In this document: positions 3,641 through 60,931 of the stretch, in pieces
How positions within the stretch are numbered: the first letter of the stretch is position 1
Layout: the number at the start of each line of letters is the position of its first letter
Notes under the pieces: model-generated
What the model was told of the DNA's origin: nothing
What the model saw: only the letters and a program-made list of their open reading frames with translations
The model's database searches: none
DNA from: Arminella tubonensis
Lineage (GTDB): Bacteria; Pseudomonadota; Alphaproteobacteria; Rhizobiales; Rhizobiaceae
DNA length: 64,000 bases
Assembly (NCBI RefSeq): GCF_003240585.1
Contig: NZ_PCDP01000035.1
Span: forward strand, 434,001-498,000
Reading direction: 5' to 3'
Position numbers and translations under genes: made by a program

Positions 3641-4648
3641 ATGGAGAAAATATATAACGATTATTCTCGCGATGGTATAGAAATACACACAGATAATTTT
3701 CGCGACGACAGTCTTTTGCGCGCGGGTTTGAAGCTCAATCACCTGCGGATGATTGTCACGATCGAGGATCACGGACAGATTTCAGCGGCTGCGGAAGCGC
3801 TGAATATATCCCAGCCGGCGGCATCACGAATGTTATCCGAGATGGAATCGATTGCGAAAACGGCACTTTACGAGCGAATCGCCAGGGGTGTCGTGCTGAC
3901 CCCCTTCGGCTCGGCCCTGGCCAAGCGGGCAAGGAAGATCCTTCTGGAGCTACGCGAAGCGAGTCGCGAAATCGCAGAGCTTCGCACCGGCAAGGGCGGC
4001 TCCGTCTACCTCGGCGCTGTTACCGCGCCTGCAATCAGCCTCGTAGTGCCCGCCATCCGGCAGGTCACGCAGACCTACCCCGGCATCGAGATCAACATAC
4101 AGGTCGAGACGAGCAATATTCTGGCCCGCGAACTCCTCGCCGCACGCCACGATTTCATCATCTGCCGAATCCCGGACGAGCTTAACCCCCGCCTCTTCAC
4201 CGCCCATGAGATCGGCGTGGAGAAAGCCTGCCTCATCGTGCGAAACGGCCACCCCTTGCTCGAAAAAGGCGTCGTCGGCCTGCACGATCTCATAGGCCGC
4301 GACTGGGTCTTCCAGCCGCCGGGCACCCTGCTTCGACGAAAGGTCGAGGACATATTCATCTCGGCTGGCGTGCCGCTGCCGGAAAATATCGTCAATACCT
4401 CCTCGCTGCTGCTGACGGTGGCTGTGGTCTGCAAGACCGATGCGATCGCCCCGATCGCGCTCGACATGGCCGAGTTCGTGTGTGGCCAGAGCTCGAATGC
4501 CGGCGAGGCCTGCATTCTGCCTATCGACTTCGAGATCTCGGTAAAGCCCTACAGCCTTATTACCGCCCGCGAGCGCGCCATGCCGCCGAGCGCGAGCCTG
4601 CTCTACGACATGATCCTGGAGCAGAGCCGAAGCCTGGCCGCGACCTGA
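3641..4648 (+). CDS. gbpR: LysR-family regulator GbpR (sugar-responsive activator of chvE)
   Basis: 335-residue LysR-type transcription factor. The winged helix lies at about residues 30-90 (ISAAAEALNISQPAASRMLSE is the helix-turn-helix region), followed by a LysR substrate domain. Known biology: GbpR regulates chvE in Agrobacterium in response to arabinose, fucose and galactose. The gene is divergent from chvE, the expected position. The first ~25 residues precede the usual LysR start; the ATG at 3641 has AAGGAGG with a long 13-nt spacer, so the true start is not certain. High confidence in family, good in symbol by synteny. Confidence 0.88.
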   Translation: MEKIYNDYSRDGIEIHTDNFRDDSLLRAGLKLNHLRMIVTIEDHGQISAAAEALNISQPAASRMLSEMESIAKTALYERIARGVVLTPFGSALAKRARKILLELREASREIAELRTGKGGSVYLGAVTAPAISLVVPAIRQVTQTYPGIEINIQVETSNILARELLAARHDFIICRIPDELNPRLFTAHEIGVEKACLIVRNGHPLLEKGVVGLHDLIGRDWVFQPPGTLLRRKVEDIFISAGVPLPENIVNTSSLLLTVAVVCKTDAIAPIALDMAEFVCGQSSNAGEACILPIDFEISVKPYSLITARERAMPPSASLLYDMILEQSRSLAAT

Positions 4649-4699
4649 TCAGCCCTGCGCCACCTTCGCTTCCTAATGTTCGTTCCTCTGGAGGAACGC

Positions 4700-5197
4700 A
4701 TGCGGTTCGGGCAATCGGTATTTCAATCAGTTCTGGAACGTCTCGACGCTGAGGATGCTGAAGATGGCGAAAGCCCTGCCAGTGCCTACCATCGTATCCA
4801 CGGCCTGAACTCGAGCTTCGTCGCCGACGTGCGCGAGGGCGTCTCCGCAGCTTCGATCCGGCCGGGCCAGGCCTATATCGATAATCTCGAATTCGAGGAG
4901 CCTTCCCCTGTCGACGCCGCACGGCCTGAAGAGCCGCCGCAACCGGCAGCTCCGGAACCGCCTCCCCTCGTCATGCCGGCACACCTGACGCGAACAGCGC
5001 CGCAGGATGTGGCCGCCGAGCTGGCGATCTCGTCCGGGGACACCCAGCACAGTCTTAACGACAAGCGCCGCGCGTTCGCCAAGGCCAATCATCCAGACGG
5101 TGTCGCGCCGCCGTTCCGCGAGAATGCGACCGCCCGCATGATGATCGCCAATCTCCTGATCGACGAAGCCCTTCGCCGTATCAGCCGGCAAAGGTAG
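4700..5197 (+). CDS. J-domain-like hypothetical protein
   Basis: 165 residues from the ATG at 4700, chosen because GGAGG sits 5 nt upstream; an ATG at 4676 lacks a ribosome site. The N-terminal half is acidic, the centre is proline- and alanine-rich (about 80-100), and the C-terminal ~65 residues read like a short DnaJ domain: helix LNDKRRAFAKAN followed directly by the HPD tripeptide (NHPDGV) and a closing helix. HPD is the Hsp70-stimulating motif. No membrane segment or signal peptide is seen. A co-chaperone-like role is inferred. It stands 51 bp after gbpR on the same strand. Confidence 0.7.
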   Translation: MRFGQSVFQSVLERLDAEDAEDGESPASAYHRIHGLNSSFVADVREGVSAASIRPGQAYIDNLEFEEPSPVDAARPEEPPQPAAPEPPPLVMPAHLTRTAPQDVAAELAISSGDTQHSLNDKRRAFAKANHPDGVAPPFRENATARMMIANLLIDEALRRISRQR

Positions 5198-5207
5198 CGC
5201 AGCCAGG

Positions 5208-5462
5208 CTATTCCGGATCTTTTTCCTGGTCGCCGGGTTCGCCAGCCGCGACCGTGGTCTCCGTTTCCTCTTTCAAGGGCGGCGGAGTGTATGTCAGCAG
5301 CAGCTTGTAGGCGGAATAGATGCCGAGCGCCCCGACGATGATCGCCCAGAACGGTTCAGAGGTCGACGCTTCGATGATAGCCCATCCCAGGCAGACGGCG
5401 ACGATCGCGATCCGGATCCACAGGGGTCGGTAGAACGAATGGTCCGGATCGATCAGTTGCAT
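5208..5462 (-). CDS. Small two-helix membrane protein, unknown function
   Basis: 84 residues. Two hydrophobic stretches (about 15-34, IRIAIVAVCLGWAIIEA, and 38-58, FWAIIVGALGIYSAYKLLLTY) are followed by an acidic, proline-rich cytoplasmic-looking tail ending EPGDQEKDPE. It resembles small conserved rhizobial membrane proteins but I do not recognise a named family. Convergent with the J-domain-like gene and divergent from idhA. The codon pattern is consistent with a real gene, though no strong ribosome site is visible. Confidence 0.6.
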   Translation of the reverse strand: MQLIDPDHSFYRPLWIRIAIVAVCLGWAIIEASTSEPFWAIIVGALGIYSAYKLLLTYTPPPLKEETETTVAAGEPGDQEKDPE

Positions 5463-5618
5463 GACTGTATTGCTCGCTCTCTATTGTTCGCTTGTCTTTA
5501 GGCTGAATTTCAGAATTGTGAAACCCTGGCGCCTTGACGTCGCCTTCGGAAAATGGAATGAAAATTCCACAAAATTCATAATTCGGTTTATTTGTTCTGA
5601 AATTGGGAGGAATGAAAG

Positions 5619-6611
5619 ATGACAGTAAGATTTGCTCTGCTCGGCGCCGGCCGCATAGGCAAGGTGCATGCAAAAGCAGTCAGTGGCAACGCCAGTGCCA
5701 AGCTCATCGCGGTCGCCGACGCGTTTCCGGCCGCGGCCGAAGCCATTGCATCAGCCTATGGCTGCGAAGTCCGCACGATCGAGGCGATCGAGGCGGCCAA
5801 GGACATCGACGCGGTCGTCATCTGCACGCCGACCGATACCCATGCCGACCTGATCGAGCGCTTTGCCCGCGCCGGCAAGGCGATCTTCTGCGAAAAACCG
5901 ATCGATCTCGACGTTGCCCGTGTCAAGGCCTGCATCAAGGTGGTCGCCGATACCAAGGGCAAGCTGATGGTCGGCTTCAACAGGCGCTTCGATCCGCATT
6001 TCATGGCGGTTCGTCAGGCCATCGACGACGGCAAGATCGGCGCTGTCGAAATGGTGACCATCACCTCGCGCGACCCGGGCGCTCCGCCGGTCGACTACAT
6101 CAAGCGCTCCGGCGGCATCTTCCGCGACATGACCATCCACGATTTCGACATGGCCCGCTTCCTGCTCGGCGAGGAGCCGGTCACGGTCAGCGCGACCGCC
6201 GCCGTCCTGGTCGACAAGGCGATCGGCGATGCCGGTGACTATGACAGCGTCTCGGTCCTGCTGCAGACCGCGTCCGGTAAGCAGGCGATGATCTCCAACT
6301 CCCGCCGCGCCACCTACGGCTACGACCAGCGCATCGAGATCCACGGATCGAAGGGCATGGTCGCGGCCGAGAACCAGCGCCCGTTCTCGATCGAAGTGGC
6401 AAATGGCGACGGCTATACCCGCCCGCCACTGCATGATTTCTTCATGACCCGCTACACCGAGGCCTACGCCAACGAAATCGCCGCCTTCATCACGGCAATC
6501 GAGCAAGGCACCGCGATTACGCCCTCCGGCGCCGATGGCCTTGCTGCCCTCAGACTTGCCGATGCAGCCATGCAGTCCGTCAAGGAAGGCAAGCAGATCA
6601 AGGTCGGATAA
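5619..6611 (+). CDS. idhA: Inositol 2-dehydrogenase (Gfo/Idh/MocA family)
   Basis: 330-residue NAD-dependent enzyme oxidising myo-inositol to scyllo-inosose, the first step of inositol catabolism in the cytoplasm. The Rossmann motif GAGRIGKVHAKAV is at residues 9-21. The Gfo/Idh signature FCEKPIDLD near residue 92 supplies the conserved lysine, and GGIFRDMTIHDFDMARFLLG holds the catalytic Asp/His pair near 172-176. Length and sequence closely match rhizobial IdhA/IolG as I remember it. GGGAGG precedes the ATG. It stands alone here with a hairpin terminator after it; the other iol genes are not in the window. Confidence 0.92.
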   Translation: MTVRFALLGAGRIGKVHAKAVSGNASAKLIAVADAFPAAAEAIASAYGCEVRTIEAIEAAKDIDAVVICTPTDTHADLIERFARAGKAIFCEKPIDLDVARVKACIKVVADTKGKLMVGFNRRFDPHFMAVRQAIDDGKIGAVEMVTITSRDPGAPPVDYIKRSGGIFRDMTIHDFDMARFLLGEEPVTVSATAAVLVDKAIGDAGDYDSVSVLLQTASGKQAMISNSRRATYGYDQRIEIHGSKGMVAAENQRPFSIEVANGDGYTRPPLHDFFMTRYTEAYANEIAAFITAIEQGTAITPSGADGLAALRLADAAMQSVKEGKQIKVG

Positions 6612-6641
6612 GTCTCGTCTACTTCAGTCGTTGAACACATG

Positions 6642-6668
6642 TGGCCGGGTTTTTCGCCCGGCCATTTT
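6642..6668 (+). terminator. Terminator after idhA (possibly bidirectional)
   Basis: Perfect 8-bp stem TGGCCGGG / CCCGGCCA (6642-6649 and 6657-6664) with a 7-nt loop, followed by TTTTC. It lies between convergent idhA and the ROK regulator and could serve both. Confidence 0.75.
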
Positions 6669-6671
6669 CAT

Positions 6672-7919
6672 TCAGCTGGCCCGATCGTTCAATTCCATGC
6701 TGGCAGCTGCCGCGCGCGCCATGACGATATCGTTGTCCATGATCGACAGCGCGCGATTGAGATGTCCCTCGAAAACCAGCGCCTGTTCGTCCGGCACGAC
6801 CCGCATCTCCGGCATGCCCTCCATCCGCACGATCAGCGACTGCGCCAACCCCTCCTCGATACCCTCACGAAGCAGGTCGTAGTACCGCGTACCCGGTCCG
6901 GTCAGCGCGATCGGCATGCGTTCGGTCAGGCTGAGGACCCGCGACAGCCCGTTTCCGAGCGCCAACCCCGCCTGGCGAAAGGCGAAGCCGTTGCGCCGAT
7001 GGCCCTGGCGCGCGCTTGCAGCGATCTTGTCAAGTTCCGAGACCGGAACGAATTTCGCCGGGATGGTATCGAGCGGAACGGCGAAGGCATTGCGCAGGAT
7101 GGCGTAGAAGCCGGCATAGGCCTCGATGCAGCCAGACGACCCGCAACGACAAAGCGCGCCCTCCGGCGCATGGAGCATATGTCCGAAATTCGGTGCAGAA
7201 ACCTCGGGCTCGCCGCCGTCCCGCCGCCGAACGATCCCCAGCCCGATGCTATGCCCGAGCGATAGCGCCGCCAGCGCCCGGAAGTCGCTGCCCTTGTCGT
7301 TTTCCTCGCGCTGTCCGACGGCAGCAGCAACCAGCAGCGTCTCGTTGCCAAGGATGATTTTCGCCGACCATTCGGCGCCAAGCACATCGGCGAAATCGAT
7401 CTGCTCGCGCCCGAAAATCGGCGACCAGCGCAAGATTGGCTCGATCGCATCGACGAGCCCCTTGCTGCTGATCGAAATGATCAGCACGTCGTCACGATCG
7501 ATCCGTGACCGCGAAACGAGCCGCAACAACCCCTCCTGCATGGCGGCTACGAACTTCTGCACCCCGCCCGCATCCTGGGACCGCGCCTCGGAAAAGCGGT
7601 CGAGCAGCGTACCGGCGTAGTCGACGAGAGAATATTGGACAGCGTCGGACGAGATGATGACGGTAATCAGATAACCGCAATCGCGCCGCTGCGAAAATGC
7701 CACCCGCGGACGTCCTCGACCCGACGCGGCCTGCTGTTCGGTTTTCGCAATGATCTGGGCGCGCTCGAGATCGGCGGTTATCGCCGAGATCGTCGCCGAC
7801 GACAGGCTGGTGAAATCAGAAAGCTCGGTATGGGCCAGGGGGCCATGTGTTCGCAGCGCCTTCAGCACCAACGCGCTATTGCGCTGGCGGACCAATTCCG
7901 TGCTCGATTTGATCTGCAT
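6672..7919 (-). CDS. ROK-family transcriptional repressor, probably of the xylose operon
   Basis: 415 residues with an N-terminal winged helix-turn-helix (about 10-65, SSATISAITADLERAQII is the recognition region) and a C-terminal ROK domain. The zinc signature reads CRCGSSGCIEAY near residue 257. ROK regulators of this layout (XylR/NagC type) bind operators as dimers and release on binding sugar. It is divergent from xylFHG with a perfect inverted repeat between them, so it probably controls that operon. The start ATG at 7917-7919 has GGGGAGACGG upstream. Family secure; target inferred. Confidence 0.88.
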   Translation of the reverse strand: MQIKSSTELVRQRNSALVLKALRTHGPLAHTELSDFTSLSSATISAITADLERAQIIAKTEQQAASGRGRPRVAFSQRRDCGYLITVIISSDAVQYSLVDYAGTLLDRFSEARSQDAGGVQKFVAAMQEGLLRLVSRSRIDRDDVLIISISSKGLVDAIEPILRWSPIFGREQIDFADVLGAEWSAKIILGNETLLVAAAVGQREENDKGSDFRALAALSLGHSIGLGIVRRRDGGEPEVSAPNFGHMLHAPEGALCRCGSSGCIEAYAGFYAILRNAFAVPLDTIPAKFVPVSELDKIAASARQGHRRNGFAFRQAGLALGNGLSRVLSLTERMPIALTGPGTRYYDLLREGIEEGLAQSLIVRMEGMPEMRVVPDEQALVFEGHLNRALSIMDNDIVMARAAAASMELNDRAS

Positions 7920-10792: not shown

Positions 10793-11578
10793 ATGACGGA
10801 TCAAACAACTCCGCTCGTGGAAATGAAGAACATTTCCATTTCCTTCGGCGGCATCCACGCAGTCGACAACGCATCGGTGGACCTCTACCCCGGTGAAGTC
10901 GTCGCCCTCCTCGGCCATAACGGTGCCGGCAAGTCGACGCTGATCAAGATTCTTTCCGGCGCCTACAAGCGCGATAGCGGCGAAATCCTGATCAACGGCG
11001 ACCCCGTCGACATACGCACGCCGCGCGACGCCAAGAAATATGGCATCGAGACGATCTACCAGACGCTCGCCGTCGCCGATAACGTCGACGCCGCCGCCAA
11101 CCTCTATCTCGGCCGCGAGCTGCAGACCCGCTGGGGCACGCTCGACGACGTGGCGATGGAAGCCTCGGCCCGCGAGGTCATGGGCCGGCTGAACCCCAAC
11201 TTCAAGCGCTTCAAGGAGCCGGTAAAGGCACTCTCCGGCGGCCAGCGCCAGTCGGTGGCCATCGCCCGCGCCATCCTCTTCAACGCACGCATCCTGATCA
11301 TGGACGAGCCGACGGCAGCGCTCGGCCCCCAGGAGACCGCACAGGTCGGCGAGTTGATCAAGCAGTTGAAGAAGGAAGGTATCGGCATCTTCCTCATCAG
11401 CCACGATATCCACGACGTCTTCGATCTCGCAGACCGCGTTTCTGTCATGAAAAACGGTCAGGTCGTCGGCCACGCCCGCACCGAGGACGTCACCAAGGAC
11501 GAAGTCCTCGGCATGATCATCCTCGGCAAGGTCCCCCCGAAGGCCATCCCTGGCCCCGGCGCCATGAAGATGGCGTAG
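10793..11578 (+). CDS. xylG: Xylose ABC transporter ATP-binding protein, single-domain XylG
   Basis: 261-residue ABC ATPase. Walker [10 protein letters not shown] at 41-49, Q-loop near IYQTLAV, signature LSGGQRQS near 147 and Walker [12 protein letters not shown] near 168, with the switch His in LISHDIHDV. Enteric XylG is ~510 residues with two ABC modules; this protein has one intact module and must act as a homodimer, a form common in rhizobia. It follows xylH by 14 bp and ends the operon before a clear terminator. Confidence 0.9.
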
Positions 11579-11601
11579 GACGCGCAATAGAAGAGCCCGG
11601 C

Positions 11602-11638
11602 AAAAAGGCCGCGAACCACCTGAGTTCGCGGCCTTTTC
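11602..11638 (+). terminator. Rho-independent terminator of the xyl operon
   Basis: Perfect 14-bp stem AAAAGGCCGCGAAC / GTTCGCGGCCTTTT (11603-11616 and 11624-11637), 7-nt loop, ending in TTTTCC, 24 nt after the xylG stop. Confidence 0.85.
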
Positions 11639-11757
11639 CATTTCAAGTCGAGACTTATTCCCCGGAGCGCCATTTCCCGCATTTTCCGCATTGAAGCCAG
11701 ACGCTTCCTAGGCTAAGAACCTCCCATCGGACGGGCGACCAAGACTCGCCAAGGCAT

Positions 11758-11834
11758 GCACCCGTAGCTCAGCTGGATAGAGTGTTGGATTCCGATTCCA
11801 AAGGTCACAGGTTCGAATCCTGTCGGGTGCGCCA
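11758..11834 (+). tRNA. tRNA-Arg (anticodon CCG)
   Basis: 77-nt cloverleaf with encoded CCA. The acceptor stem GCACCCG pairs with CGGGTGC. The anticodon stem TTGGA/TCCAA encloses the loop TTCCGAT, giving anticodon CCG. The T arm is ACAGG-TTCGAAT-CCTGT. The discriminator base is G. A small mixed-content region follows, but no integrase or duplicated tRNA 3' end was seen in the window. Confidence 0.95.
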
Positions 11835-11936
11835 TTTTTCTCCGCCTCCTCATAAGACCGGACTGTCGTACGAGAAACCGGACTGAACCTCCCACAAGAG
11901 CGGACTCATCTCATTTCTCCATAGACGCCGTAGTCT

Positions 11937-12248
11937 TTACGTTTTCAGTCCCGGAACCATTGGGATCGATTCCCAGCTCTGGCCGGCAAAGACCACGCAA
12001 CTGCTACCATTGGCGTTGGTCACGAGCATGGTCCAGCTACCGCTCTCGGAGACGTAGACCTCCAGAATTGCGGCCTGGTTGATGAAGCCGACCGCCTGAA
12101 GGGTCTCGGAATAGTGCGAGCCAAGGAAGTCGACGACTTGGGAATGTTCGGCGCAATTGAGCACCGGCTCTGCCGCTGCTGGATGTACCATCGCCGCAAG
12201 CGTCACTATGGCGGTTCCGATGAGCCTGCGGGCTATATTGCGTACCAT
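11937..12248 (-). CDS. Small secreted protein, unknown function
   Basis: 103 residues with a signal peptide (MVRNIARRLIGTAIVTLAAM, cleaved around PAAAEP, residue 26). The mature part has two cysteines (NCAEH and SSCVVF), which could form a disulfide, and the motif GSWTMLVTNANGSSCVVFAGQSW near the C-terminus. That ending is familiar from small conserved alphaproteobacterial periplasmic proteins of no known function. GGAGG lies 7-8 nt before the ATG. Convergent with tRNA-Arg. Confidence 0.75.
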   Translation of the reverse strand: MVRNIARRLIGTAIVTLAAMVHPAAAEPVLNCAEHSQVVDFLGSHYSETLQAVGFINQAAILEVYVSESGSWTMLVTNANGSSCVVFAGQSWESIPMVPGLKT

Positions 12249-12421
12249 GACGCACCTCCTTCGCCGGTAACCTGGCCGAAGAGGAGATTGCGTTGACCTG
12301 TCCTGCCGGGGTCGGCATTTCTATGGTCGGAACCTGACGCGACACGCGTAAATGGTGCCGCCACGTCTACATTATGACAGAAAATTCTTTATTTTTCAAA
12401 ATATTAATTGGAGGCGCGTGA

Positions 12422-12444
12422 CGCGACAGGGACTACCTGTCGCG
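12422..12444. repeat. Perfect hairpin in intergenic DNA
   Basis: CGCGACAGG and CCTGTCGCG form a 9-bp perfect stem around GACTA. It follows an AT-rich stretch but has no T-run on either side. Role unknown. Confidence 0.5.
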
Positions 12445-13006
12445 AGGCAAATGAGGACACCGCGACCACGGGTAGCGAGGGCCAATCGCTACTCCGGTGC
12501 TGCATTTGGCGATATCGGATGATACGGATGAGCCTTCGCAAATGAAGGGGCTGCCCGCATCTTTCCCCGATCACATTGGGTCGCAAGCAGGCGGAAGGAT
12601 CGATATTCCATCGGTTCGGGTGGCAAATCTGCGGCACGGGGCAGAACCGAGCCAACGAAGAAACGTGACGGAGCAGGATATCGGAAACGCCTCGCCTCAT
12701 GCTGAGAACTTCGCCTGCTCCGACAGACCCTGTCCAATAATCCAAGCCTCATCTTGCCAGTTCAATGAATAGGAAGACAAATAGTTTAGCATCGGGCCTA
12801 CAGATGAGTTGGTGTAATGGATGCCATCGAGCCGCCTTCTCGCCTGTGCTGTTCTCGTCTATGCGACATCGCTGAATTAAATCGTAGGCGCAGCCGAAAT
12901 TGTTCGTTTGAACGCGGAATATAAAGCCGCTGTATTAGTAAATTTCAAGACTAGGCACCCGCAATCCCTTGAAAGACTGTTAATTCGAAATTACTTATAT
13001 ACTTAA

Positions 13007-13020
13007 GCGTGCGCGCACGC
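13007..13020. promoter_or_regulatory. Palindrome upstream of the SPW-repeat gene
   Basis: GCGTGCGCGCACGC is a perfect 14-bp palindrome 40 bp before the start codon, directly after an AT-rich stretch that could hold a promoter. It may be a regulator site; no factor can be named. Confidence 0.4.
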
Positions 13021-13060
13021 GAGGCAATGCCTTAGTTAAGCTCCAACCTGGGAGGTTGTC

Positions 13061-13420
13061 ATGGCAAAAGCTTTAATGGAAGGAAGGAAGGGGCAGGATT
13101 TGGCTAATCTTGTCCTGGCAGTATGCTTGTTCATCTCGCCGTGGATCGTCGGCTTTGCGGCCGAAACTATGCCGAGTTGGAACGCGTGGATCGTCGGCGT
13201 CATGCTTTGTGGGTTGGCGGTTGCAGCGCTTTCGGCTTTCGCCGAATGGGAGGAATGGGTCAACCTGGTCCTCGGCCTCTGGTTGATTGCATCTCCCTGG
13301 CTGCTCAGTTTTGCAACCAATGTCAACGCGATGTGGACCAGCCTGGTTCTGGGGCTACTCGTTGTCGCGGTATCGCTCTGGGCAGTCTGGGACTACCGCC
13401 ATCCCCACGCTCACGCCTAA
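13061..13420 (+). CDS. SPW-repeat membrane protein
   Basis: 119-residue integral membrane protein of the SPW repeat family. The two diagnostic repeats are visible: LFISPWIVGFA near residue 24 and LIASPWLLSFA near residue 80, each opening a pair of hydrophobic helices (four in total). The function of the family is unknown. GGGAGG precedes the ATG by 6 nt. Monocistronic, with a hairpin after the stop and a palindrome before the start. Confidence 0.85.
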   Translation: MAKALMEGRKGQDLANLVLAVCLFISPWIVGFAAETMPSWNAWIVGVMLCGLAVAALSAFAEWEEWVNLVLGLWLIASPWLLSFATNVNAMWTSLVLGLLVVAVSLWAVWDYRHPHAHA

Positions 13421-13758
13421 GCCGGAGGCAGTTACTACAAAGGCCCCGCCGCGTAGTGCGGCGGGGCTTCCTGTGATTTTTCTCGTTCTCAAGGCCATAT
13501 TCCTAAAGCCATGACCGACAAGCTTTCGATTGCCTAACACGTTTGCCGCTACCGCCACGTTCCGACCGGGCGAAAAATTCAAGACGATCTCGACCAGATC
13601 TAAAGAGGCTTTGAAGACACGGATGGGCGCGCGGAATCTGCATCACCTTGTCGCGATTTCCATGGTGTTGGTGCTATAAGTTTCTCGCTGGATGGTCGAC
13701 GCCGACGGAGCCCTGGCGCCTGTATGGCGCGAAGGTTTGGAAAATGCCGAGGTAGAGG
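13421..13758. other. Intergenic region with one hairpin
   Basis: 338 bp between the SPW gene and the TIR-like gene. Apart from the terminator-like stem at 13443-13467 I see no coding or RNA feature; the base composition is average. Confidence 0.5.
13443..13467 (+). terminator. Terminator-like hairpin after the SPW gene
   Basis: Perfect 10-bp stem GCCCCGCCGC / GCGGCGGGGC with a GTAGT loop, followed by TTCCTGTGATTTTT; the T-run is displaced by about 10 nt, so termination may be partial. Confidence 0.6.
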
Positions 13759-15099
13759 ATGAAGATTTTCTGGTCGTGGCAGAGCGACACCCACCAGCCA
13801 AGTGGACGCTATTTCGTACGCGAGGTGCTTCAGAGGCTTTGCGACAAGCTGGCTGATGCCCTCGACCTTGAACAGGCAGAGCGTCCGCAGGTGGATCACG
13901 ATACCTTTGAAGTGGCGGGTTCACCTCCGATCGCCGAGACCATCCTGCAGAAGATTGCCGACGCAGCGGTCTTTGTCGCGGATGTCACGCCGGTGACAAA
14001 GACGAATGGCGGAAAACACGTCGCAAATCCGAACGTCATGATCGAGCTCGGCTACGCCCTTGCAAAGCTCCGACATGCCCGCATCGTTCTCGTCATGAAC
14101 ACAGCGGACGGCGCATCCGTGAAGCATTTGCCATTCGACCTTCGTCACTGGCGTCAGCCCATCAGTTATTCCCTGAAGAGGGACGCAACGGACGAGCAGC
14201 GCGCGGAAGTGGCCAATGAATTGACCGAGGCATTTCGCCAGGCGATCGTACCCTCTCTGAAGGTCGCCGCGTCCGAGGAAGATGCAAAGCGGCGTTCGGT
14301 GCAAAGGATGCCGGAGCTCGACGTCGAGATCGACCCTGACTCTGCTCTGTTGCCGTACCTGAAAATCACGCAGCTTCCCGCTACGCGCGAGATCAAATCG
14401 ATAGAAGCCATTCGGGATGACTATCAGCCACTTCGTTTTTCGGGGCAGACCGAAAACTGGATGCTGGGTCTATCGCTCGCGGAGTTTGGCCAGCCGACCT
14501 ATTCGCCATTGCCGTCGCAATGGACGAAGGAGGAGATCGACGGCTATAACCGCGCGCTCAATCGCTTCTACGAGCGATGGGATCACTACGTCGCCGAAAT
14601 GGAGGAATGGTCGCTCGCGTTGCAGCGGACCTTCGAATTCCGGCTTGTCCTGGCGAACAAGGGGTCCGCCCCCGCGACAAACATCGATGTCGATCTGACC
14701 TTGCCTGCCGGCCTCGTCCTACACTCGGCAACAGATGAAATTCTACCCGAGCCAGAAGCGCCCGAACCACCGCCATTCGCTCCCTATGGGCATGGAGGGA
14801 CATCGATCCTCGCCGCCGGGAATAACTTGCCAAATGTGCTTGCGCCCTTCCCTCGATCAACGACCATTGAACCTGAAAAGAACCTGGTACGCTTTCGCAT
14901 TTCCAACCTTAAGCATGGACGCCGGGTGGATATCGCTGCGTTCAAAGCGACTTTTCGAAGCGGTTGGGACATAAAACCGTTCGCCGTTAAATATGTCATC
15001 ACGGCGAACGAACCGCTCAAGCCGACAACGGGCCAACTACATATCGACGTCAAGCTGAATGGCGAGGCTCTTGCAACGGATTCCGACGATCCCCAATAA
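13759..15099 (+). CDS. TIR/deoxyribosyltransferase-like protein with C-terminal beta domain
   Basis: 446 residues, no signal peptide. The first ~150 residues look like the TIR / nucleoside 2-deoxyribosyltransferase superfamily: opening strand MKIFWSWQSD, a second strand AVFVADVTPV near 75, then NPNVMIELGYALAKL near 92, where the Glu in the N-x-N-V-x-x-E-x-G-Y motif is at the catalytic position of NAD-cleaving and deoxyribosyltransferase relatives, and a strand RIVLVMN. The rest (about 180-446) is beta-rich with an Ig/CARDB-like segment (FRLVLANKGSAPATNIDVDLTLP near 293). Proteins with such heads occur in anti-phage and nucleotide-signalling settings; that role here is inference. Single gene with no obvious operon partner. 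Confidence 0.7.
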   Translation: MKIFWSWQSDTHQPSGRYFVREVLQRLCDKLADALDLEQAERPQVDHDTFEVAGSPPIAETILQKIADAAVFVADVTPVTKTNGGKHVANPNVMIELGYALAKLRHARIVLVMNTADGASVKHLPFDLRHWRQPISYSLKRDATDEQRAEVANELTEAFRQAIVPSLKVAASEEDAKRRSVQRMPELDVEIDPDSALLPYLKITQLPATREIKSIEAIRDDYQPLRFSGQTENWMLGLSLAEFGQPTYSPLPSQWTKEEIDGYNRALNRFYERWDHYVAEMEEWSLALQRTFEFRLVLANKGSAPATNIDVDLTLPAGLVLHSATDEILPEPEAPEPPPFAPYGHGGTSILAAGNNLPNVLAPFPRSTTIEPEKNLVRFRISNLKHGRRVDIAAFKATFRSGWDIKPFAVKYVITANEPLKPTTGQLHIDVKLNGEALATDSDDPQ

Positions 15100-15409: not shown

Positions 15410-17179
15410 ATGACGCGGCGACTGGCGGCAATCCTTGATGCAGATGTTGTCGGGTTCTCACGGTTGATGAGTCTCGATGAAGCAGCGACCTACGCATCGC
15501 TGAAGGCCCATAACAACGAAATATTCGCCCCGGCAATTACTCGGCATCACGGAGACATCGTTAAATTTCTTGGCGACGAAACGCTTGCGGCCTTTGCCAG
15601 CGTTGTCGATGCAACGAGTTGCGCGATGGAGATTCAAAGGGCGTTGGCGGCGCGCAACGAAAACATCGAGCCGGAGCGGCGAATGCTCTGGCGTATCGGC
15701 GTCCACGTCGACGAAGTCCTTGTTGAAGACGACGAGATTTTTGGCGATGGCGTAAACGTCGCTACGCGCCTGCAACAGCTCGCGCCACCTGGCGGCATAT
15801 GTGTGTCACACCAGGTTCGCGATCAGCTTCGCTCGAAGCTGGATTTCCCCGCAACGGATTTTGGCGATCGCAGAGTTTATCACATTGAACGACCGATTCG
15901 AATCTGGTGCTGGTCCCCCACCGCGGAAAGTGCGACATCGTGCGAATTGCCAAGGCCTCCCGTTGCTGTCCAGGACAGGCCCTCGATGGCGGTGCTCCCG
16001 TTTCTGAACATGTCGAGCGTGGAGGGACAGGATCATTTTTCGGATGGCTTCACCGAAGAATTGATCATGACATTGGCTCGTTGCCGCTGGCTTCTGGTCG
16101 CGGCGCGAAACTCGTCGTTCAGCTACAAGGGCAAGGCGATGGACGCACGAAGGGTCGCCGAGGAACTTGGTGTCAGGTATATCCTGGAAGGCAGTGTCAG
16201 ACGATCGGACAGCAGGATCAGGATCACCGCCCAGTTGTTGAAGGGGAGTGATGGCACACTTCTCTGGGCGGAGCGCTACGATCGTGTGATCGCCGACATT
16301 TTCGACATTCAGGATGAGATCGCTTCCGAGATCACGGGAACTATTGAGCCGGAGCTCGGCGTGATCGAGTTCACAGCTCTCCGGGATCGGCTGCCAGTCG
16401 ACATGACAGCCTGGGAAACATACCTGAAGGGGCTCTGGCATCTCTACCGTTTCACGAGCGAAGAGCTGGAAACAGCCAAGGGGCTTTTTGAAGAGGCGAT
16501 ACGCATTGATGCTTCTTTCGCGCAGGCCCACGCCCGGCTCGCCTATGTCCATATTCAGCTCGGCTGGTATGGCCCTTTGCATGAGCGGATCAGCCACATA
16601 TGCGATGCGATCGAGCGCGCCGAGCGTGCCATCGCGATAGATTCGAAAGAGCCGGCAGCGCACCTGGCGCTAGGCCGTGCACTTGCTCTTGATGGTGCGA
16701 AGGAGGCCGCGATCGCTCACCTTCGGAATGCAATAAAGTTGGACCACAGCTTTGCTCAGGCGCATTTCGCGCTGGGTCAGGCGCTTTGCTATGCCAATCG
16801 TCCCGAAGAGGGAATACTGGAAATAAAAAGCGCGTTCAGGCTAAGCCCTCGTGACCCGCATATGTGGACTTTTCACAACATGCTCGCGATCGCTTACTAC
16901 CAACTGAACCGGATGGAAGAAGCGGGCGAGGCGGCGCGAGAATCGCTCCGTTCGCCAAACGCCACTTTCTGGCCAGCAATGTTCCTTGTTGCCATACTTG
17001 GCAGGCAAGGAAAAATCGCAGCGGCACAAGACGCCATCGCGCAGCTTCATCGTTTCCGTCCGGGAATGACGCTCGAGCAGACGCGTGGTGAGTTTTTCTT
17101 CGGCGAGACGCCGGTCATGTCCGAAGCCTTCATCGATCAATTCATGGACGATCTGACGAACGCTGGCCTGCCGCCGTGA
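15410..17179 (+). CDS. Class III adenylate/guanylate cyclase with TolB-like and TPR regions
   Basis: 589-residue soluble protein. The N-terminal cyclase domain (about 1-170) has the metal-binding opening AAILDADVVGFSRLM, the second Asp in VKFLGDETLAAF and the transition-state region GDGVNVATRLQ. The usual GDG after the lysine is GDE here, and the usual INLGDV is VHVDEV, so activity should be tested. A TolB-N-like region (MAVLPFLNMSS, FSDGFTEELIMTLAR, VRYILEGSVRR) covers about 185-330, followed by TPR-type helices to the end (AHLALGRALA, AHFALGQALCYANRPEEG). This layout is frequent in rhizobia, which have many such cyclases. AAGGGG precedes the ATG. Confidence 0.88.
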   Translation: MTRRLAAILDADVVGFSRLMSLDEAATYASLKAHNNEIFAPAITRHHGDIVKFLGDETLAAFASVVDATSCAMEIQRALAARNENIEPERRMLWRIGVHVDEVLVEDDEIFGDGVNVATRLQQLAPPGGICVSHQVRDQLRSKLDFPATDFGDRRVYHIERPIRIWCWSPTAESATSCELPRPPVAVQDRPSMAVLPFLNMSSVEGQDHFSDGFTEELIMTLARCRWLLVAARNSSFSYKGKAMDARRVAEELGVRYILEGSVRRSDSRIRITAQLLKGSDGTLLWAERYDRVIADIFDIQDEIASEITGTIEPELGVIEFTALRDRLPVDMTAWETYLKGLWHLYRFTSEELETAKGLFEEAIRIDASFAQAHARLAYVHIQLGWYGPLHERISHICDAIERAERAIAIDSKEPAAHLALGRALALDGAKEAAIAHLRNAIKLDHSFAQAHFALGQALCYANRPEEGILEIKSAFRLSPRDPHMWTFHNMLAIAYYQLNRMEEAGEAARESLRSPNATFWPAMFLVAILGRQGKIAAAQDAIAQLHRFRPGMTLEQTRGEFFFGETPVMSEAFIDQFMDDLTNAGLPP

Positions 17180-53245: not shown

Positions 53246-54412
53246 CTAACGATTGCGCCCTTGCCGGTTGATGGCGAGATTGCGATCCTGAATATCCCGT
53301 ATCAGCGTGTCGCTTACCTCTGATGCAGATTGCTGTCCGCCGAAAGACGAGGCTGGCATGCCGCCTGCGCCCTGTTGCCGTGATTTTGAATTTGCCCAGC
53401 GTGCGCTGCCTCTTCCCATGGCGGCTGGAAAGGCGTCAAAGGCACGGCTTGCGCCTGTCTGGATGGCATCGTCGATCCATTTCTGCGCGCCGCCCGCAAT
53501 GCGTGCACTTAAGGGAACGATCTGTATCAGGAGAAACAACCCCGAGAAACATACTAGAACAAAGGGCGCGATTTCTTTCATGCCTGGCACGCCGCCGCGT
53601 TCCATCGATACGTTCAAGGCGATGACGATGTCCTTGATGACAATCAGAAAGAAACCCAGGAATGCGTAGAAGAAAATCGGGACGACCATGGTCTGGACTG
53701 CGGTTGTCAGCCACCCGGAGAAGAACCGTGAAACGCCTTGGAAGAGAAGCAGCACGATGAAGACCGGCGCCATGGCAAGCACAACCCACAGAGCCACCTT
53801 GCAGAATAGCATCAGAAACACCGCGTATCCCACGAACAGGGCGGCAACGATCCAGACGATGGCCGAATAGATCGACGACCCCAGGGCCTCGGGAGGCTGT
53901 GCCGCGCCAGCTGCCGGCACCGGTGATGCCGGTTCGCCGGCAGGCGGTGCGGGTTTCTCTGCCGCGGGCTGCTTGGCCAGAACCGGGCGTTGGCCGGATA
54001 TCTTTGTCGATGCCTGCACCGCAATTCGGTAAAAATCATAAAGATCCCGCTCAACGGTCATTTGCGACATCGAGCCGCGGCCTACATTGACGATATTGTT
54101 CATCATGACGGCACTGATGGAGGAGGGAATATCGGTGATGACCCGGTAGACCACCGTTTGAATAGGTCCCCATCCCGTGGCGATCGAGAAGATGACGGCG
54201 ATGCGGAAGAAGCGAAAGGCAATTTCAATGACGCTGCCTTCGCCCTTGCCCTGCCAGAACCTGACACCCCAAAACACCAGGTACAGCACGAGCAAGCCCG
54301 ACAGTACCGGCGCGATCTGGCTTGCAAAGGCCCCATAGGTCGACGCCGTAAAGCTCTTGCCGAGACGATCTATGCTGTCCGACATGAGAGCGATGTAATT
54401 GGGCGTTTCCAT
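53246..54412 (-). CDS. virB6: Type IV secretion inner-membrane protein VirB6
   Basis: 388 residues, polytopic (five or six helices), VirB6/TrbL family. The N-terminus METPNYIALMSDSIDRLGKS and the first helix PVLSGLLVLYLVFWGVRFWQG are typical, as is the central Trp-containing helix FCKVALWVVLAMAPVFIVLL. A Pro/Ala-rich loop at about 125-155 (KPAPPAGEPASPVP) is likely periplasmic. Forms part of the inner-membrane channel. Last gene of the permuted virB operon. The upstream lipoprotein frame overlaps its first 188 bp. Confidence 0.88.
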   Translation of the reverse strand: METPNYIALMSDSIDRLGKSFTASTYGAFASQIAPVLSGLLVLYLVFWGVRFWQGKGEGSVIEIAFRFFRIAVIFSIATGWGPIQTVVYRVITDIPSSISAVMMNNIVNVGRGSMSQMTVERDLYDFYRIAVQASTKISGQRPVLAKQPAAEKPAPPAGEPASPVPAAGAAQPPEALGSSIYSAIVWIVAALFVGYAVFLMLFCKVALWVVLAMAPVFIVLLLFQGVSRFFSGWLTTAVQTMVVPIFFYAFLGFFLIVIKDIVIALNVSMERGGVPGMKEIAPFVLVCFSGLFLLIQIVPLSARIAGGAQKWIDDAIQTGASRAFDAFPAAMGRGSARWANSKSRQQGAGGMPASSFGGQQSASEVSDTLIRDIQDRNLAINRQGRNR

Positions 54413-54611
54413 GGGGTCTCTGCTCCGAACGCCAGGGATTGAAGAGATAGATTATTGCCTCGTTCACCCGTCTGAGTGGTCCGCAATCGTCCGCCCCGAG
54501 CGAAGAGGAAAGGCCGGAGAGGGAGCAGGGCATCTTGAGTTTTTGATTGCCGGCGCAGGCGGTGCAAACCACCGATATGCAGGCCAGCAGGCAAAGGGTC
54601 GAAATCTTCAT
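54225..54611 (-). CDS. Small lipoprotein in the T4SS operon (VirB7-like or exclusion-type)
   Basis: The ATG overlaps the virB4 stop by 4 nt, so it is probably translated. The start is a lipoprotein signal with lipobox VCTAC (Cys near residue 19), followed by a short Cys-containing mature part (KMPCSLSG, DDCGPLRRVNEAIIYLF). After about residue 65 the frame runs 188 bp into virB6 in another frame and becomes low-complexity and basic, so the native stop has perhaps been lost; only the first ~65 residues look genuine. It stands where virB5 would be expected and may supply the VirB7 function. Confidence 0.6.
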   Translation of the reverse strand: MKISTLCLLACISVVCTACAGNQKLKMPCSLSGLSSSLGADDCGPLRRVNEAIIYLFNPWRSEQRPHGNAQLHRSHVGQHRSSRQELYGVDLWGLCKPDRAGTVGLARAVPGVLGCQVLAGQGRRQRH

Positions 54612-57028
54612 GTGTTGCTTCCGGAATTACAAAATATAGGCAGCCACGCCTGCGGATCGTCCCCCAGACGGGCGCGCAGAACGGTCAACTCCTCCACCGT
54701 CTCTGCGCGAGCGGACAGGACCTTTATGAGGTCATTCATGCCGCTGAGCCGCAGCCGCGCAATAACCGACTCCTGCCCGTGCTTGATCAAAAACGATCTG
54801 TTTTGCGGATCGGCGGTCTTGATCCATTGAATTTCCCGTGCCGAAAGGCCGAATCCAGTGCTGTGGCTCTCAAAATCCGCGCGGGGATTGGGGAAGAAGA
54901 TATGCGTCGCACTCTGCTCGATCAGCGTGCTGGCAAGCCTTGAGGAGGCAATGTCAGATGCGCTCTGGGTTCCGAATCCCACGACGCCGTTGAATTTTCG
55001 GATGGTCTTCATCTTGTCCTTGATGAAGGCCGCGAACACATCATCATCCAGCAGTCTCCACCCCTCATCCAGAAAGATCAGCAGCGGGCGACCGTCCAGC
55101 AATTCGTCCAGCCGGTGGAAAATGTACATCAACGCCGCACTGCGGGTCAGCGGATCGTCGAGGATCTTGGTCATGTCGAAACCGGCGACATCGGACCAGG
55201 TAAAGCGGTCTTCGGGATTGTTGAACAGCCAGCCGAGCTGGTCCGGGCGCAGCCATTTGTCGAAACGCGCCAGAAGATCATCGTCGCCGGCCCGGATTCG
55301 TCCGCGCAACAGCGATCCGAACACGTTGAGTGACCGTGCCTCGGGACCAGAGGCATAGACCTGGCCGATCGCAGCCCTGATGACGCTTTCCTCGCTTGCC
55401 GGAAGCAGATTGCCATCGGGCCGGCGCAGCATCAGGGAAAATAGCTGGAACAGGAATTCGCGGTTGGCACCACTGTCGGGCAGGCAAAACGGATTGAATC
55501 CGGAAGCAATACCGGGCTGAAGAACCTCGTAATTGCCACCGAGCGCCCGAATGAAGATTTCAGCGCCCCGGTCCTTGTCGAAGAAAACACAGCGCGGCGT
55601 CGGCTTGATGCGCTGCGATTGTGCCATGAGAAAGGAGAGCGCCACGGTCTTTCCGGAGCCCGACGGCCCGATCATGGTGAAATTGCCGAGGTCCCGCACA
55701 TGGAAATTGAAGAAGTAGGCGGTCTGGCTGGTGGTTTCGAGCAGCGAGATGGCGCTGCCCCAATGATTGCCGCTCGCCTTGCCGCTCGGGAAATTGTGCA
55801 ACGACAGGAATCCGGCAAAGTTCTTCGACGAGATCATCGCCGAGCGAGCAATATAGGAAAAATTGCCCGGCAATTGTGCCCAGAAGGCCGGTTCGCAGTT
55901 GAGATCCTCACGCAGCCAGATGATCGCCTGCTCCGTCAACGTGGCGCCGACCGAGCGGATGGATTGATCAAGCTCCTGCTTGTTGTCACCGAGGCACATG
56001 ATCGAAAGGTGATGATGTCCGTAGATGGACCGCGAGCTTAGCAATTCGTCGCGGGCGCTGTTGAGCTGGCTGCCGACGACGGAGCCGGCCTCATCCGCCA
56101 TGGCGATCTGGCGCGCGACGCGCTCGATCTGCCCCTGCGCCACCGGTCGGTCGACAATGGCAAAGCTCTGGCTGACGATAAACTCATGCGGTGCCTTCAG
56201 CAGCCCGTCGAGGAGCAACGGACCGGTATAGGGCGGATATTCCCGGACCGAAAGCATCGCTCCCATGCGGCTGTTCGACGGCGGCGTCGACCCGACAAAC
56301 TCGACGGCGTTCCGCCCGAAATGCAAGCGCTTCATGGCCAGCGCGCCATCGAGCGGCATGCGCGGCAATCGCATCTTGACGGGTTCGAGGCCGTTGACGA
56401 TCTGGACCAGAAACTCGAGCGGCTCTGAAAAATACACACCGGGCTCAGGTTCGCGGACCCCGAGAATTCGTGCTCCATAGTCTTGCAGCACATCGCGAAT
56501 ATTGAGAACCGCGTCGTTCAGCTCGCGCAGATCCTGGTCTTCGCCGACGACTTCGCCCTTGTTCGCGCGCCTCGAAAACATGCTCCGGGTAATCTTGTCG
56601 ATCACCCCGACCTGACCGCGCAACGGACGGCGGACGATCGTGACATACATGTCGTTGACGAACATGCGCTGCTGTTCGAGTTGCGCCATATAGCGCCGGT
56701 TCAGTTCGTCCGCGAAAGGGCTTTCGAACTCGCCTTCGAGGCCCGGCTTGATGCGGCGGCGGATCATGTGCCCATAAACGGCGTAACGACTGCTGCCGAG
56801 GGATCGCAATATCGTGTTGCGACCTTCGAGCTTGCCGTTCAGCTGCGCCATATCGGCGGTTTCGAAGCAAAAGCCGTCAAGCTTCAGAACGCTGACCAGC
56901 AAACCCTCCTTCGTCCGCAACACCGTATCGTCGACGTGACGGGTATAGGGAATGTGGGCGGAGACCGGGAATTCGCGCTTCGCCGCAGCGCCAAATCGCA
57001 TTTCCCTGCGTATCGGGCGCGTCGTCAT
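54608..57028 (-). CDS. virB4: Type IV secretion ATPase VirB4
   Basis: 806 residues, the full length of the CagE/VirB4 family. N-terminal domain with the signature FCFETADMAQLNGKL and a C-terminal RecA-like ATPase with Walker A MIGPSGSGKTVALSFLMAQ near 450, Walker B PLLIFLDEGWRLLDD near 650 and FGTQSASDIASS. Energises pilus assembly and substrate transfer at the inner membrane. Overlaps virB3 and the lipoprotein gene by 4 nt each. Confidence 0.94.
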   Translation of the reverse strand: MTTRPIRREMRFGAAAKREFPVSAHIPYTRHVDDTVLRTKEGLLVSVLKLDGFCFETADMAQLNGKLEGRNTILRSLGSSRYAVYGHMIRRRIKPGLEGEFESPFADELNRRYMAQLEQQRMFVNDMYVTIVRRPLRGQVGVIDKITRSMFSRRANKGEVVGEDQDLRELNDAVLNIRDVLQDYGARILGVREPEPGVYFSEPLEFLVQIVNGLEPVKMRLPRMPLDGALAMKRLHFGRNAVEFVGSTPPSNSRMGAMLSVREYPPYTGPLLLDGLLKAPHEFIVSQSFAIVDRPVAQGQIERVARQIAMADEAGSVVGSQLNSARDELLSSRSIYGHHHLSIMCLGDNKQELDQSIRSVGATLTEQAIIWLREDLNCEPAFWAQLPGNFSYIARSAMISSKNFAGFLSLHNFPSGKASGNHWGSAISLLETTSQTAYFFNFHVRDLGNFTMIGPSGSGKTVALSFLMAQSQRIKPTPRCVFFDKDRGAEIFIRALGGNYEVLQPGIASGFNPFCLPDSGANREFLFQLFSLMLRRPDGNLLPASEESVIRAAIGQVYASGPEARSLNVFGSLLRGRIRAGDDDLLARFDKWLRPDQLGWLFNNPEDRFTWSDVAGFDMTKILDDPLTRSAALMYIFHRLDELLDGRPLLIFLDEGWRLLDDDVFAAFIKDKMKTIRKFNGVVGFGTQSASDIASSRLASTLIEQSATHIFFPNPRADFESHSTGFGLSAREIQWIKTADPQNRSFLIKHGQESVIARLRLSGMNDLIKVLSARAETVEELTVLRARLGDDPQAWLPIFCNSGSNT

Positions 57029-57327
57029 GCGCTATCACCCGGCGCATAGCTTTTGACATGCCAGACGGCTTTTGACCGCGGAGGGGTCTTTGCCGCTTTC
57101 ACCCGCAGGACCATGAACATCTGATCATCCAGTAGTGACAGGAAATAACCGAAGCTGTGAATGGGCAGCACCAGCAGCAGGGTCAGCAGGTTTTTCGTGG
57201 CGAGGAAGATCACCGCGGTGACCACGATATTGAACATGGCAAACATGTAGGGAACGCCGAACAATGTCGGCGCCCGCGTCAGCGCCTTGACCAGGGGAAC
57301 CAAATCCGGAGCATCGTCAGCGATCAC
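57025..57327 (-). CDS. virB3: Type IV secretion protein VirB3
   Basis: 100 residues starting with GTG at 57327. Short VirB3 family protein: KALTRAPTLFGVPYMFAMFN at the start, one or two helices (IVVTAVIFLATKNLLTLLLV) and a C-terminal tail. Works with VirB4 in pilus biogenesis. One nucleotide separates it from the virB2 stop and it overlaps virB4 by 4 nt. Confidence 0.9.
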   Translation of the reverse strand: MIADDAPDLVPLVKALTRAPTLFGVPYMFAMFNIVVTAVIFLATKNLLTLLLVLPIHSFGYFLSLLDDQMFMVLRVKAAKTPPRSKAVWHVKSYAPGDSA

Positions 57328-57328
57328 G

Positions 57329-57670
57329 TCAGTGTCCCAATGCGTTCTGGAAGAAGGCCACGATCTGCGTCGATCCGAAGACCAGGACTATGCCCATGAT
57401 CACCGAGCCAGCGATGCCCCAGGTGAAGCGACCGGTCCAGGCAAGAAAGCCGCAACTGATGACGGCCAGAATGGCGATCATCGAGGCGATCGGACCTGTG
57501 AGAATGGTAATCAGGGTCTGCAAGACCGACTGCACGGGTTGCAGGCCGGTCTGTGCAAAAGCGCTGCCTGTCGACGCCGAAAAGGTCATCGTCAGGACCG
57601 CCCCTTGAACGAGCGCCAACTTGGATCGACCCGAGCGAACAACTCTCATAATAGATGACTGAAAATTCAT
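57329..57670 (-). CDS. virB2: Major pilin VirB2
   Basis: 113 residues from the ATG at 57670 (GGAG 8 nt upstream). Long signal peptide (about 1-40, cleavage after SAFA), then two hydrophobic helices (LQTLITILTGPIASMIAILAVISCGFLAW in two parts and WGIAGSVIMGIVLVFGSTQIV) joined by a short polar turn, the standard VirB2 layout. Polymerises into the T-pilus-like fibre. Five nucleotides after virB1. Confidence 0.9.
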   Translation of the reverse strand: MNFQSSIMRVVRSGRSKLALVQGAVLTMTFSASTGSAFAQTGLQPVQSVLQTLITILTGPIASMIAILAVISCGFLAWTGRFTWGIAGSVIMGIVLVFGSTQIVAFFQNALGH

Positions 57671-57675
57671 TTTAT

Positions 57676-59552: not shown

Positions 59553-59621
59553 GCCGCGACCCCGCTAAAGAATGGCGGCTTGCCGCAAGCCGGGAAACGA
59601 ACGGACAAAGGCGCAAAATGG

Positions 59622-60929: not shown

Positions 60930-60931
60930 CG

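Follow-up and report, generated by a model that had tools for sequence, protein, structure and literature searches.

In a 64,000-nucleotide stretch of Arminella tubonensis DNA (contig NZ_PCDP01000035.1, positions 434,001 to 498,000; hereinafter referred to as the window), a gene encoding a protein with an enzyme-like head and a beta-rich tail raises the question of what such a protein does, and whether it takes part in anti-phage defence. The gene lay exactly where a preliminary description, made from the letters alone, had placed it, and the ORF reading ran from ATG to stop without internal stop or frameshift (Table 1; the product is hereinafter referred to as P0001). All motifs named in that description were found, namely MKIFWSWQSD (residues 1-10), DVTPV (75-79), and NPNVMIELGYA.

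Table 1. Features of the gene encoding P0001 and of its surroundings, in window coordinates; residues are those of P0001.
Feature	Position	Strand	Basis
tRNA-Arg(CCG), left border of the variable stretch	11758..11834	+	ARAGORN; flank conservation in relatives stops here
SPW-repeat protein, neighbour before the TIR gene	13061-13420		PF03779, 95.8 bits
Whole gene, TIR head and Ig-like tail	13759..15099	+	Open frame, 446 aa plus stop
TIR head, residues 1-170	13759..14268	+	PF10137 above cut-off; AlphaFold2 pLDDT mostly 80-97; SfSTING 7un8_C Z 13.2
FWSWQS motif, residues 4-9	13768..13785	+	F4, W7, Q8 in 34/34 heads; S6 in 33/34
NPNVMIELGYA motif, residues 90-100	14026..14058	+	N90, N92, V93, E96, G98 in 34/34 heads
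E96, candidate catalytic Glu	codon 14044-14046	+	Present in 34/34 aligned heads
LPFD motif, residues 124-127	14128..14139	+	P125, F126, D127 in 34/34 heads; L124 in 32/34
Head-tail linking helix, residues 145-181	14191..14301	+	Predicted helix in model
Tail start, residues 184-208	14308..14382	+	Aligned in A4; pLDDT <50 in P0001 model
Long aromatic tail helix, residues 257-289 (YN..L..FY.....Y)	14527..14625	+	Model helix 257-289; conserved residues
Ig-like beta-sandwich, residues 291-429, with NKGSAPATNIDV motif at 300-311	14629..15045	+	Predicted strands; PIN-tail profile
Class III cyclase-TPR protein, neighbour after the TIR gene	15410..17179	+	PF00211, 38.6 bits; PADLOC PycC, 31.3 bits

From profile matches and the predicted structure, the head was confidently assigned to the TIR-fold domains of the PF10137 (CAP12/Pycsar TIR) family. 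PF10137 matched the whole protein with 25.1 bits and the head with 27.6 bits (cut-off 24.7), and the best PADLOC matches of P0001 were models named "Effector, TIR". Structure prediction, which had been suggested as a check, returned a TIR fold for the head at the confidence given in Table 1. The AlphaFold2 head model matched SfSTING (7un8_C; Z 13.2, rmsd 2.3, 129 aligned residues), the SPARTA TIR (Z 12.6), DNPH1 (8rpt_B; 12.1), the SARM1 TIR (11.1), and NDTs (near 11). The structure-comparison rows (VIA-align) for the P0001 model cover the head, and the tail was assessed through the model of a relative (L033). Neither P0001 alone nor the tail alignment A4 had a meaningful match when searched against PDB sequences.

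A total of 42 heads were collected: P0001, four from genomes, 13 from plasmids (of 70 records), and 24 from viral contigs. Of these, 34 were aligned; duplicates (L046, L054), two loci with a layout like that of L006 (L012, L014), interrupted or split genes (L002, L004, L018), and, without any particular ground, L005 were left out. The residues invariant in the 34 heads were G54 and D75 together with those given as 34/34 in Table 1. The 34-head profile weakly matched PycTIR (E 0.038), a 2-deoxyribosyltransferase (E 0.12), and SfSTING (E 1.2), and the motif Glu of PycTIR and SfSTING (both NV..E.G) and of the 2-deoxyribosyltransferase (ELGYA) aligned opposite E96. We take this motif Glu of SfSTING to be its catalytic residue. 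Such a role agrees with the catalytic Glu ascribed to the SfSTING TIR domain in an excerpt of PMC13142454.

The preliminary description had called the head TIR/deoxyribosyltransferase-like. That the head is a nucleoside 2-deoxyribosyltransferase or a DNPH1-like hydrolase, acting on nucleotide pools rather than on NAD+, appears improbable. The Z scores of DNPH1 and the NDTs lay near the TIR rows, so that the fold alone chooses neither NAD+ nor a nucleotide substrate, and the profile match to 2-deoxyribosyltransferase was centred around ELGYA; however, PF05014 (nucleoside 2-deoxyribosyltransferase) scored 14.8 bits against a cut-off of 28.8, whereas PF10137 was above its cut-off. Further, 21 of the 34 heads matched PF10137 at E ≤ 0.001 and none matched PF05014 at that level. 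The TIR part of the earlier label was retained, and the deoxyribosyltransferase part was the weaker one by profile, although not separated from TIR by the fold comparison.

For the tail, the model gave a 33-residue helix followed by a beta-sandwich (Table 1), mostly with pLDDT of ~84-94, in line with the beta-rich tail expected earlier; a loop (343-365) and the stretch 183-248 were of low confidence. The model of L033, a PIN-headed relative, had the same order of elements plus an early pair of strands (183-187 and 193-199), which was of low confidence in P0001. Alignment A7 was the folding input, and a MAFFT alignment of tails plus heads (A6) was misaligned and was not used. The nearest solved folds to the L033 tail were generic Ig-like ones (YcnI, integrin, and AP2-mu; Z ~9-10), a likeness that may perhaps reflect just a common arrangement. 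Ig-like Pfam families remained below their cut-offs in P0001 (DUF11, 20.8 of 24.6 bits; NPCBM_assoc, 19.2 of 24.4 bits), and CARDB was absent from the matches at E ≤ 1. The tail had been described as Ig/CARDB-like; the Ig-like part agrees with these sub-cut-off matches and the predicted sandwich.

Relatives of the tail were found in proteins with another kind of head. A tail-only search of plasmids yielded one match, a Novosphingobium protein with a PIN-like head (L020, WP_013831363.1). Searching with a DNA pattern of the tail brought up L022, a viral-contig protein with a PIN head; a modified pattern, run against one genome each for 84,980 species, gave PIN-headed proteins of Sphingobium (L033), a Bacteroidetes MAG (L036), and Rhodohalobacter (L037), as well as a partial one (L035). 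DNA patterns detect close matches only, so the count of tail relatives is a lower bound. A PIN-tail profile built from L022, L033, L036, L037, and the partial L035, with P0001 excluded, matched P0001 with 92.4 bits (E 4e-27), aligning to residues 254-432 (89 bits); the best of 2,000 shuffles reached 9.7 bits, and no other TIR protein exceeded 6.9 bits. Among 377 genomes of the order, profile A4 found P0001 and two distant relatives with PIN-like heads (L107, 26 bits; L108, 24 bits), and among 385 genomes of the class P0001 was its sole match. The tail alone matched nothing other than P0001 itself in 398 genomes of the phylum. Tail alignment A2 gave no match in viral and genome contigs, A5 none in viral contigs, and a search of phage records with the L020 tail none either.

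PF13638 (cut-off 21.9 bits) was above its cut-off in L036 (38.9 bits), L037 (71.5 bits), and L108 (38.1 bits), and below it in L022 (19.4 bits), L020 (16.4 bits), and L107 (17.3 bits); L033 had no Pfam match but was 54% identical to L022. Overall, a PIN-type head was present in all seven tail relatives with a readable N-terminus (L020, L022, L033, L036, L037, L107, L108), whereas P0001 itself had the TIR head instead, by Pfam and by the model. The structures listed for the L033 head included no PIN domain; this head was modelled at low to moderate confidence, and the absence is no evidence against a PIN assignment. Y263, N264, L267, Y271, and Y277 of P0001 (Y86, N87, L90, Y94, and Y100 of P0002) were invariant in seven tails. 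Judged by these sequence comparisons, the tail of P0001 is homologous to the tails of PIN-type proteins, and the family is spread over Alphaproteobacteria, Bacteroidota, and Rhodohalobacter. No other TIR protein with a tail of the P0001 type was found in the sequence sets searched, the combination being a single example, and a literature search of open-licence PMC papers found no title or abstract describing this tail.

Several further candidates for tail relatives were rejected. Relaxing the tail pattern brought up 11 viral loci, ten of which (L023-L032) were short or unrelated frames, with L022 as the only real one. L034 was a false match in a 38-aa frame, and L021 (E 1.4e-4) corresponded to a frame that contains a stop and overlaps other long frames. 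Plasmid matches H43-H57 to the L020 tail covered only its last ~50 residues, and 14 of the 15 fell at places without an annotated gene; these residues are probably a repeated mobile-element end and not a sign of tail kinship. By this end (L020 6415-6570), the Novosphingobium protein seems to be truncated.

The head had a different distribution. Head relatives were detected in 70 plasmid records, with 32-49% identity among the 40 listed, and on 24 viral contigs, and most of the plasmid matches listed were annotated as 'nucleotide-binding' or 'hypothetical'. Searches with the whole of P0001 gave no match in viral contigs and none in phage records; counting P0001 itself, matches within the E limits applied were obtained in two of 61 close relatives and in four of 297 family genomes, and those beyond P0001 spanned the head only. 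No second copy of P0001 was found by protein search in its own 6.53-Mb genome, which contained one other PF10137 protein elsewhere. The gene can hence be called an orphan, as it had been, with respect to the locus, but not with respect to its domains. The other PF10137 protein (L095; contig 76, ~177317-177688) gave a much stronger match (95.8 bits), and a PRTase-CE domain match (65.5 bits) adjoining it possibly marks another conflict system.

Tails were grouped by BLASTP (E ≤ 1e-4, single linkage) for 39 TIR-head proteins, two of which (L011, L050) had no usable tail. The remaining 37 tails, including the identical pairs L045/L046 and L053/L054, fell into 13 groups, between which remote kinship is possible; the largest, with 13 members, was the usual tail of the plasmid family. 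When the 37 TIR tails were compared together with five PIN-family tails, the tail of P0001 joined none of the other TIR tails and grouped only with those of the PIN family. On this grouping, the TIR head appears modular, one head being combined with many groups of tails. Elsewhere in the collection, a TIR-head protein at L058 7992-9245 had a tail that looked Ig-like by eye, was unrelated to the P0001 tail by BLAST, and had no Pfam match there. In a genome of the same genus (G008), a TIR-head gene was seemingly separated from a tail remnant by transposase genes (L106 522-8794), and a large protein near it had weak, sub-cut-off AAA/STAND matches.

The best explanation for this pattern is that the P0001 tail derives from a family with a PIN-type nuclease effector, which would have been exchanged for a TIR domain here, and it points to one kind of sensing tail being able to drive several kinds of killing head. 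The PIN version on the viral contig (L022) was located between tail-completion and baseplate-J genes. PADLOC gave no match for L022 at E ≤ 1e-5, and no defensive role is known for PIN-headed members of this tail family.

The locus was also in accordance with a variable stretch downstream of a tRNA, as had been proposed. When window positions 11000-13758 were aligned to 40 relatives, the left flank was conserved as far as the tRNA in 23 of 24 genomes of the same genus (as a single piece in 13 and as two in 10), the exception being G003, an assembly of 1,320 contigs. Among the flank matches listed, none ran beyond window position ~11865, and later parts of the query matched other places. Matches to the right flank were dispersed over various places in the relatives, and ORF content in the 10-kb stretches right of the tRNA differed across nine relatives as judged by eye. 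The TIR gene sits 1.9 kb right of the tRNA, and its position between an SPW protein and a TPR-cyclase was borne out (Table 1). Its G+C content was 57.0% (third-position G+C, 66%), in contrast to 61-62% (79-85%) in three conserved genes left of the tRNA, and the base composition of the two neighbours was similar to that of the TIR gene. A repeat of the tRNA end, as a mark of an integrated island, was looked for within the window and not found. Apart from the cyclase with its PycC match, the window neighbours scanned contained no defence gene recognised by Pfam or PADLOC. At window positions 53246-62502, on the minus strand, a series of type IV secretion genes of the VirB type was recognised by eye from the ORF translations.

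Neighbourhood statistics of homologues had been proposed as a check on a role in defence, and these were obtained for a small sample. For 12 of the 13 plasmid loci read, a control window apiece was taken at a distance of half a record; L011 was left out of this control, its record being just 34 kb. The names counted as defence were AbiE, restriction endonuclease, Shedu, ABC-three-component, and Dnd, a list made after the loci were seen. By product name, defence genes were present in six of 12 TIR loci (L006, L009, L010, L012, L016, L018) and in one of 12 controls (L091). With L014 added by PADLOC, which was run on the TIR loci only, the counts were 7/12 and 1/12 (Fisher p = 0.014). Merging three similar Roseobacteraceae loci gave 5/10 and 1/10 (p = 0.07), and looser names (HEPN, reverse transcriptase), which added L015 and controls L090 and L092, gave 8/12 and 3/12. 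Since names were picked post hoc and PADLOC was applied to TIR loci only, the enrichment of the head family near defence genes is suggestive only. Among others, plasmid loci L007, L008, L013, and L017 contained no defence gene by the names counted.

Individual loci were more specific. AbiEi-AbiEii-TIR trios were found on Roseobacteraceae plasmids (L006, L012, L014; each at 4240-7254), with the start of the TIR gene overlapping the end of AbiEii by 4 bases in L006 and L014 and the same layout in L012; PADLOC confirmed AbiEi and AbiEii in L006 and AbiEii in L014. On a viral contig (L038 2405-9254), the TIR gene followed HsdR with a 4-base overlap, HsdS lying farther upstream. In addition, a Gabija pair (GajA-GajB) was encoded upstream of the TIR gene in L016, and Shedu SduA downstream of it in L010. 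In three viral contigs (L045, L047, L049), the portal gene of a P2-like prophage had the TIR gene, or what remained of it, as its neighbour, with a gpP-like terminase beyond in L045. The P2 defence hotspot lies between gpA and gpQ according to an excerpt of PMC9122126; the place next to the portal gene is the border of that hotspot, as compared on the gpQ side.

These contexts bear on whether the protein acts against phages, or is instead directed at plasmids or used by mobile elements as a toxin for addiction or stress. The plasmid records carrying a head relative were mostly typed conjugative (57 of 70, with 6 mobilizable and 7 non-mobilizable), and AbiE is annotated also as a toxin-antitoxin pair, as such a role would have it. 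However, viral contigs carry the head by the portal gene, a known slot for antiphage cargo (PMC9122126), restriction, Gabija, and Shedu genes were co-located in single loci, and the scan of window neighbours showed nothing resembling an antitoxin partner; we regard the anti-plasmid or toxin role as unlikely. The earlier proposal of a defence role thus gained support from the plasmid and viral contexts of head relatives, and for P0001 itself defence is a candidate role.

TIR enzyme domains often serve to kill phage-infected cells. Given the predicted TIR fold, the conserved Glu, the tail homology, and the mobile or defence-related company of part of the head family, we consider it somewhat probable that P0001 is a single-gene defence protein of the abortive-infection type, in which the tail serves for sensing or clustering and the TIR head for the cleavage of NAD+ or a related nucleotide. 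The C-terminal tail, with its aromatic helix and Ig-like sandwich, would have a regulatory part, either recognising an infection cue as the trigger or oligomerising in response to it. The clustered TIR head would then use E96 on NAD+ or a close nucleotide substrate, and the resulting cleavage would halt the cell before phage maturation. As far as excerpts of PMC13142454 and PMC11224242 describe them, PF10137-type TIR domains become NADases via oligomerisation, and PycTIR is activated in this way by its own sensor domain (PMC11224242). In P0001, a tail-driven activation of the TIR head is the most likely one.

Alternatively, the protein might resemble ThsB of Thoeris, converting NAD+ into a cyclic ADP-ribose messenger that is read by a separate effector elsewhere in the genome. 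It has the same fold class, and TIR domains can do either in the account excerpted from PMC13142454; further, as an orphan, the gene could have its partner elsewhere. This has a low probability in our view, as the match was to PF10137 rather than to PF08937 (the ThsB family), those PF10137 members that excerpts of PMC13142454 and PMC11224242 describe deplete NAD+, and no ThsA-like protein was found by Pfam among the four neighbours scanned.

The cyclase-TPR gene lies 310 bases downstream of the TIR gene on the same strand, and its PADLOC PycC match had an E value of 2.7e-8. In its own genome, the cyclase gave matches at E ≤ 1e-10 at 20 places including itself, representing ~16 loci, as some places are two pieces of one gene; ten of the other loci cover the cyclase domain. 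Long matches with 70-72% identity were obtained in G001, G008, G015, and G022, three of which lacked a P0001 relative, and in G008 the relative was on another contig. P0001 had no Pfam match to a cyclic-nucleotide-binding domain at E ≤ 1. With ~15 other related loci, a cyclase found elsewhere without a P0001 relative, and no cyclic-nucleotide-binding domain, the adjacent cyclase is, from these comparisons, probably no partner of the TIR protein. A Pycsar-like pair, in which a cyclic nucleotide made by the cyclase-TPR protein turns the TIR protein on, is very unlikely despite this proximity and the membership of PycTIR in the same TIR family, the tail being homologous to those of PIN proteins.

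For P0001 as a single-gene defence protein with a sensing tail, a wider reading can be put forward tentatively: the tail may represent a family of sensors, so far undescribed, in single-gene antiviral proteins whose effectors are interchangeable, usually a PIN nuclease and here a TIR domain, through which one cue would lead to RNA cleavage or to NAD+ depletion. What is new is the combination of a TIR effector with a tail common to PIN proteins, of which one example is known to date. Effector heads are exchanged on a common sensor in CBASS. They are likewise exchanged in STAND/NLR-like systems, as reported in an excerpt of PMC9122126, and here the swap appears on a small Ig-like tail without an NTPase. 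If true, the tail would mark a new sensor family, and two chemically different killing heads on one tail should answer one phage cue. Moreover, plasmids and viral contigs carry a large TIR family that is for the most part unnamed; with its 13 tail groups by BLAST, this family merits systematic screening.

Compared with known systems, P0001 has the family, the TIR fold, and the Glu motif in common with the CAP12/Pycsar TIR effectors (PF10137; SfSTING TIR-STING and PycTIR), but it has an Ig-like tail in place of a STING or cyclic-nucleotide-binding domain, and at its locus no CD-NTase was seen and no pyrimidine cyclase partner was confirmed. Pfam scans at E ≤ 1 detected no STING domain in P0001 and no CD-NTase in its four neighbours, which are the features of CBASS TIR-STING (Cap12), and the ThsA partner of Thoeris was not found by Pfam among the four neighbours either. 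By the features tested in sequence and model, P0001 is a PF10137 TIR protein that belongs to neither CBASS nor Thoeris and probably not to Pycsar. The plasmid-encoded 'nucleotide-binding proteins' WP_223118684.1 and WP_166071636.1 have heads 41.5% and 46.8% identical to that of P0001 with the invariant motifs in common, but their tails belong to the 13-protein TIR group and are unrelated to the P0001 tail by BLAST. Conversely, the PIN-headed proteins L022, L033, L036, L037, L107, L108, and WP_013831363.1 share the helix (YN..L..YY), the NxGxAxA..D motif, and the Ig-like sandwich with P0001, more distantly in L107 and L108, but their effector head is PIN-type and not TIR. The TIR-NLR system of P4 hotspots, as far as an excerpt of PMC9122126 describes it, combines TIR and a putative sensor in one gene, as in P0001, and TIR, SIR2, and nuclease heads are swapped there on one type of sensor (PMC9122126). 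In contrast to TIR-NLR, no STAND NTPase was seen in P0001, in which the tail is a small Ig-like module.
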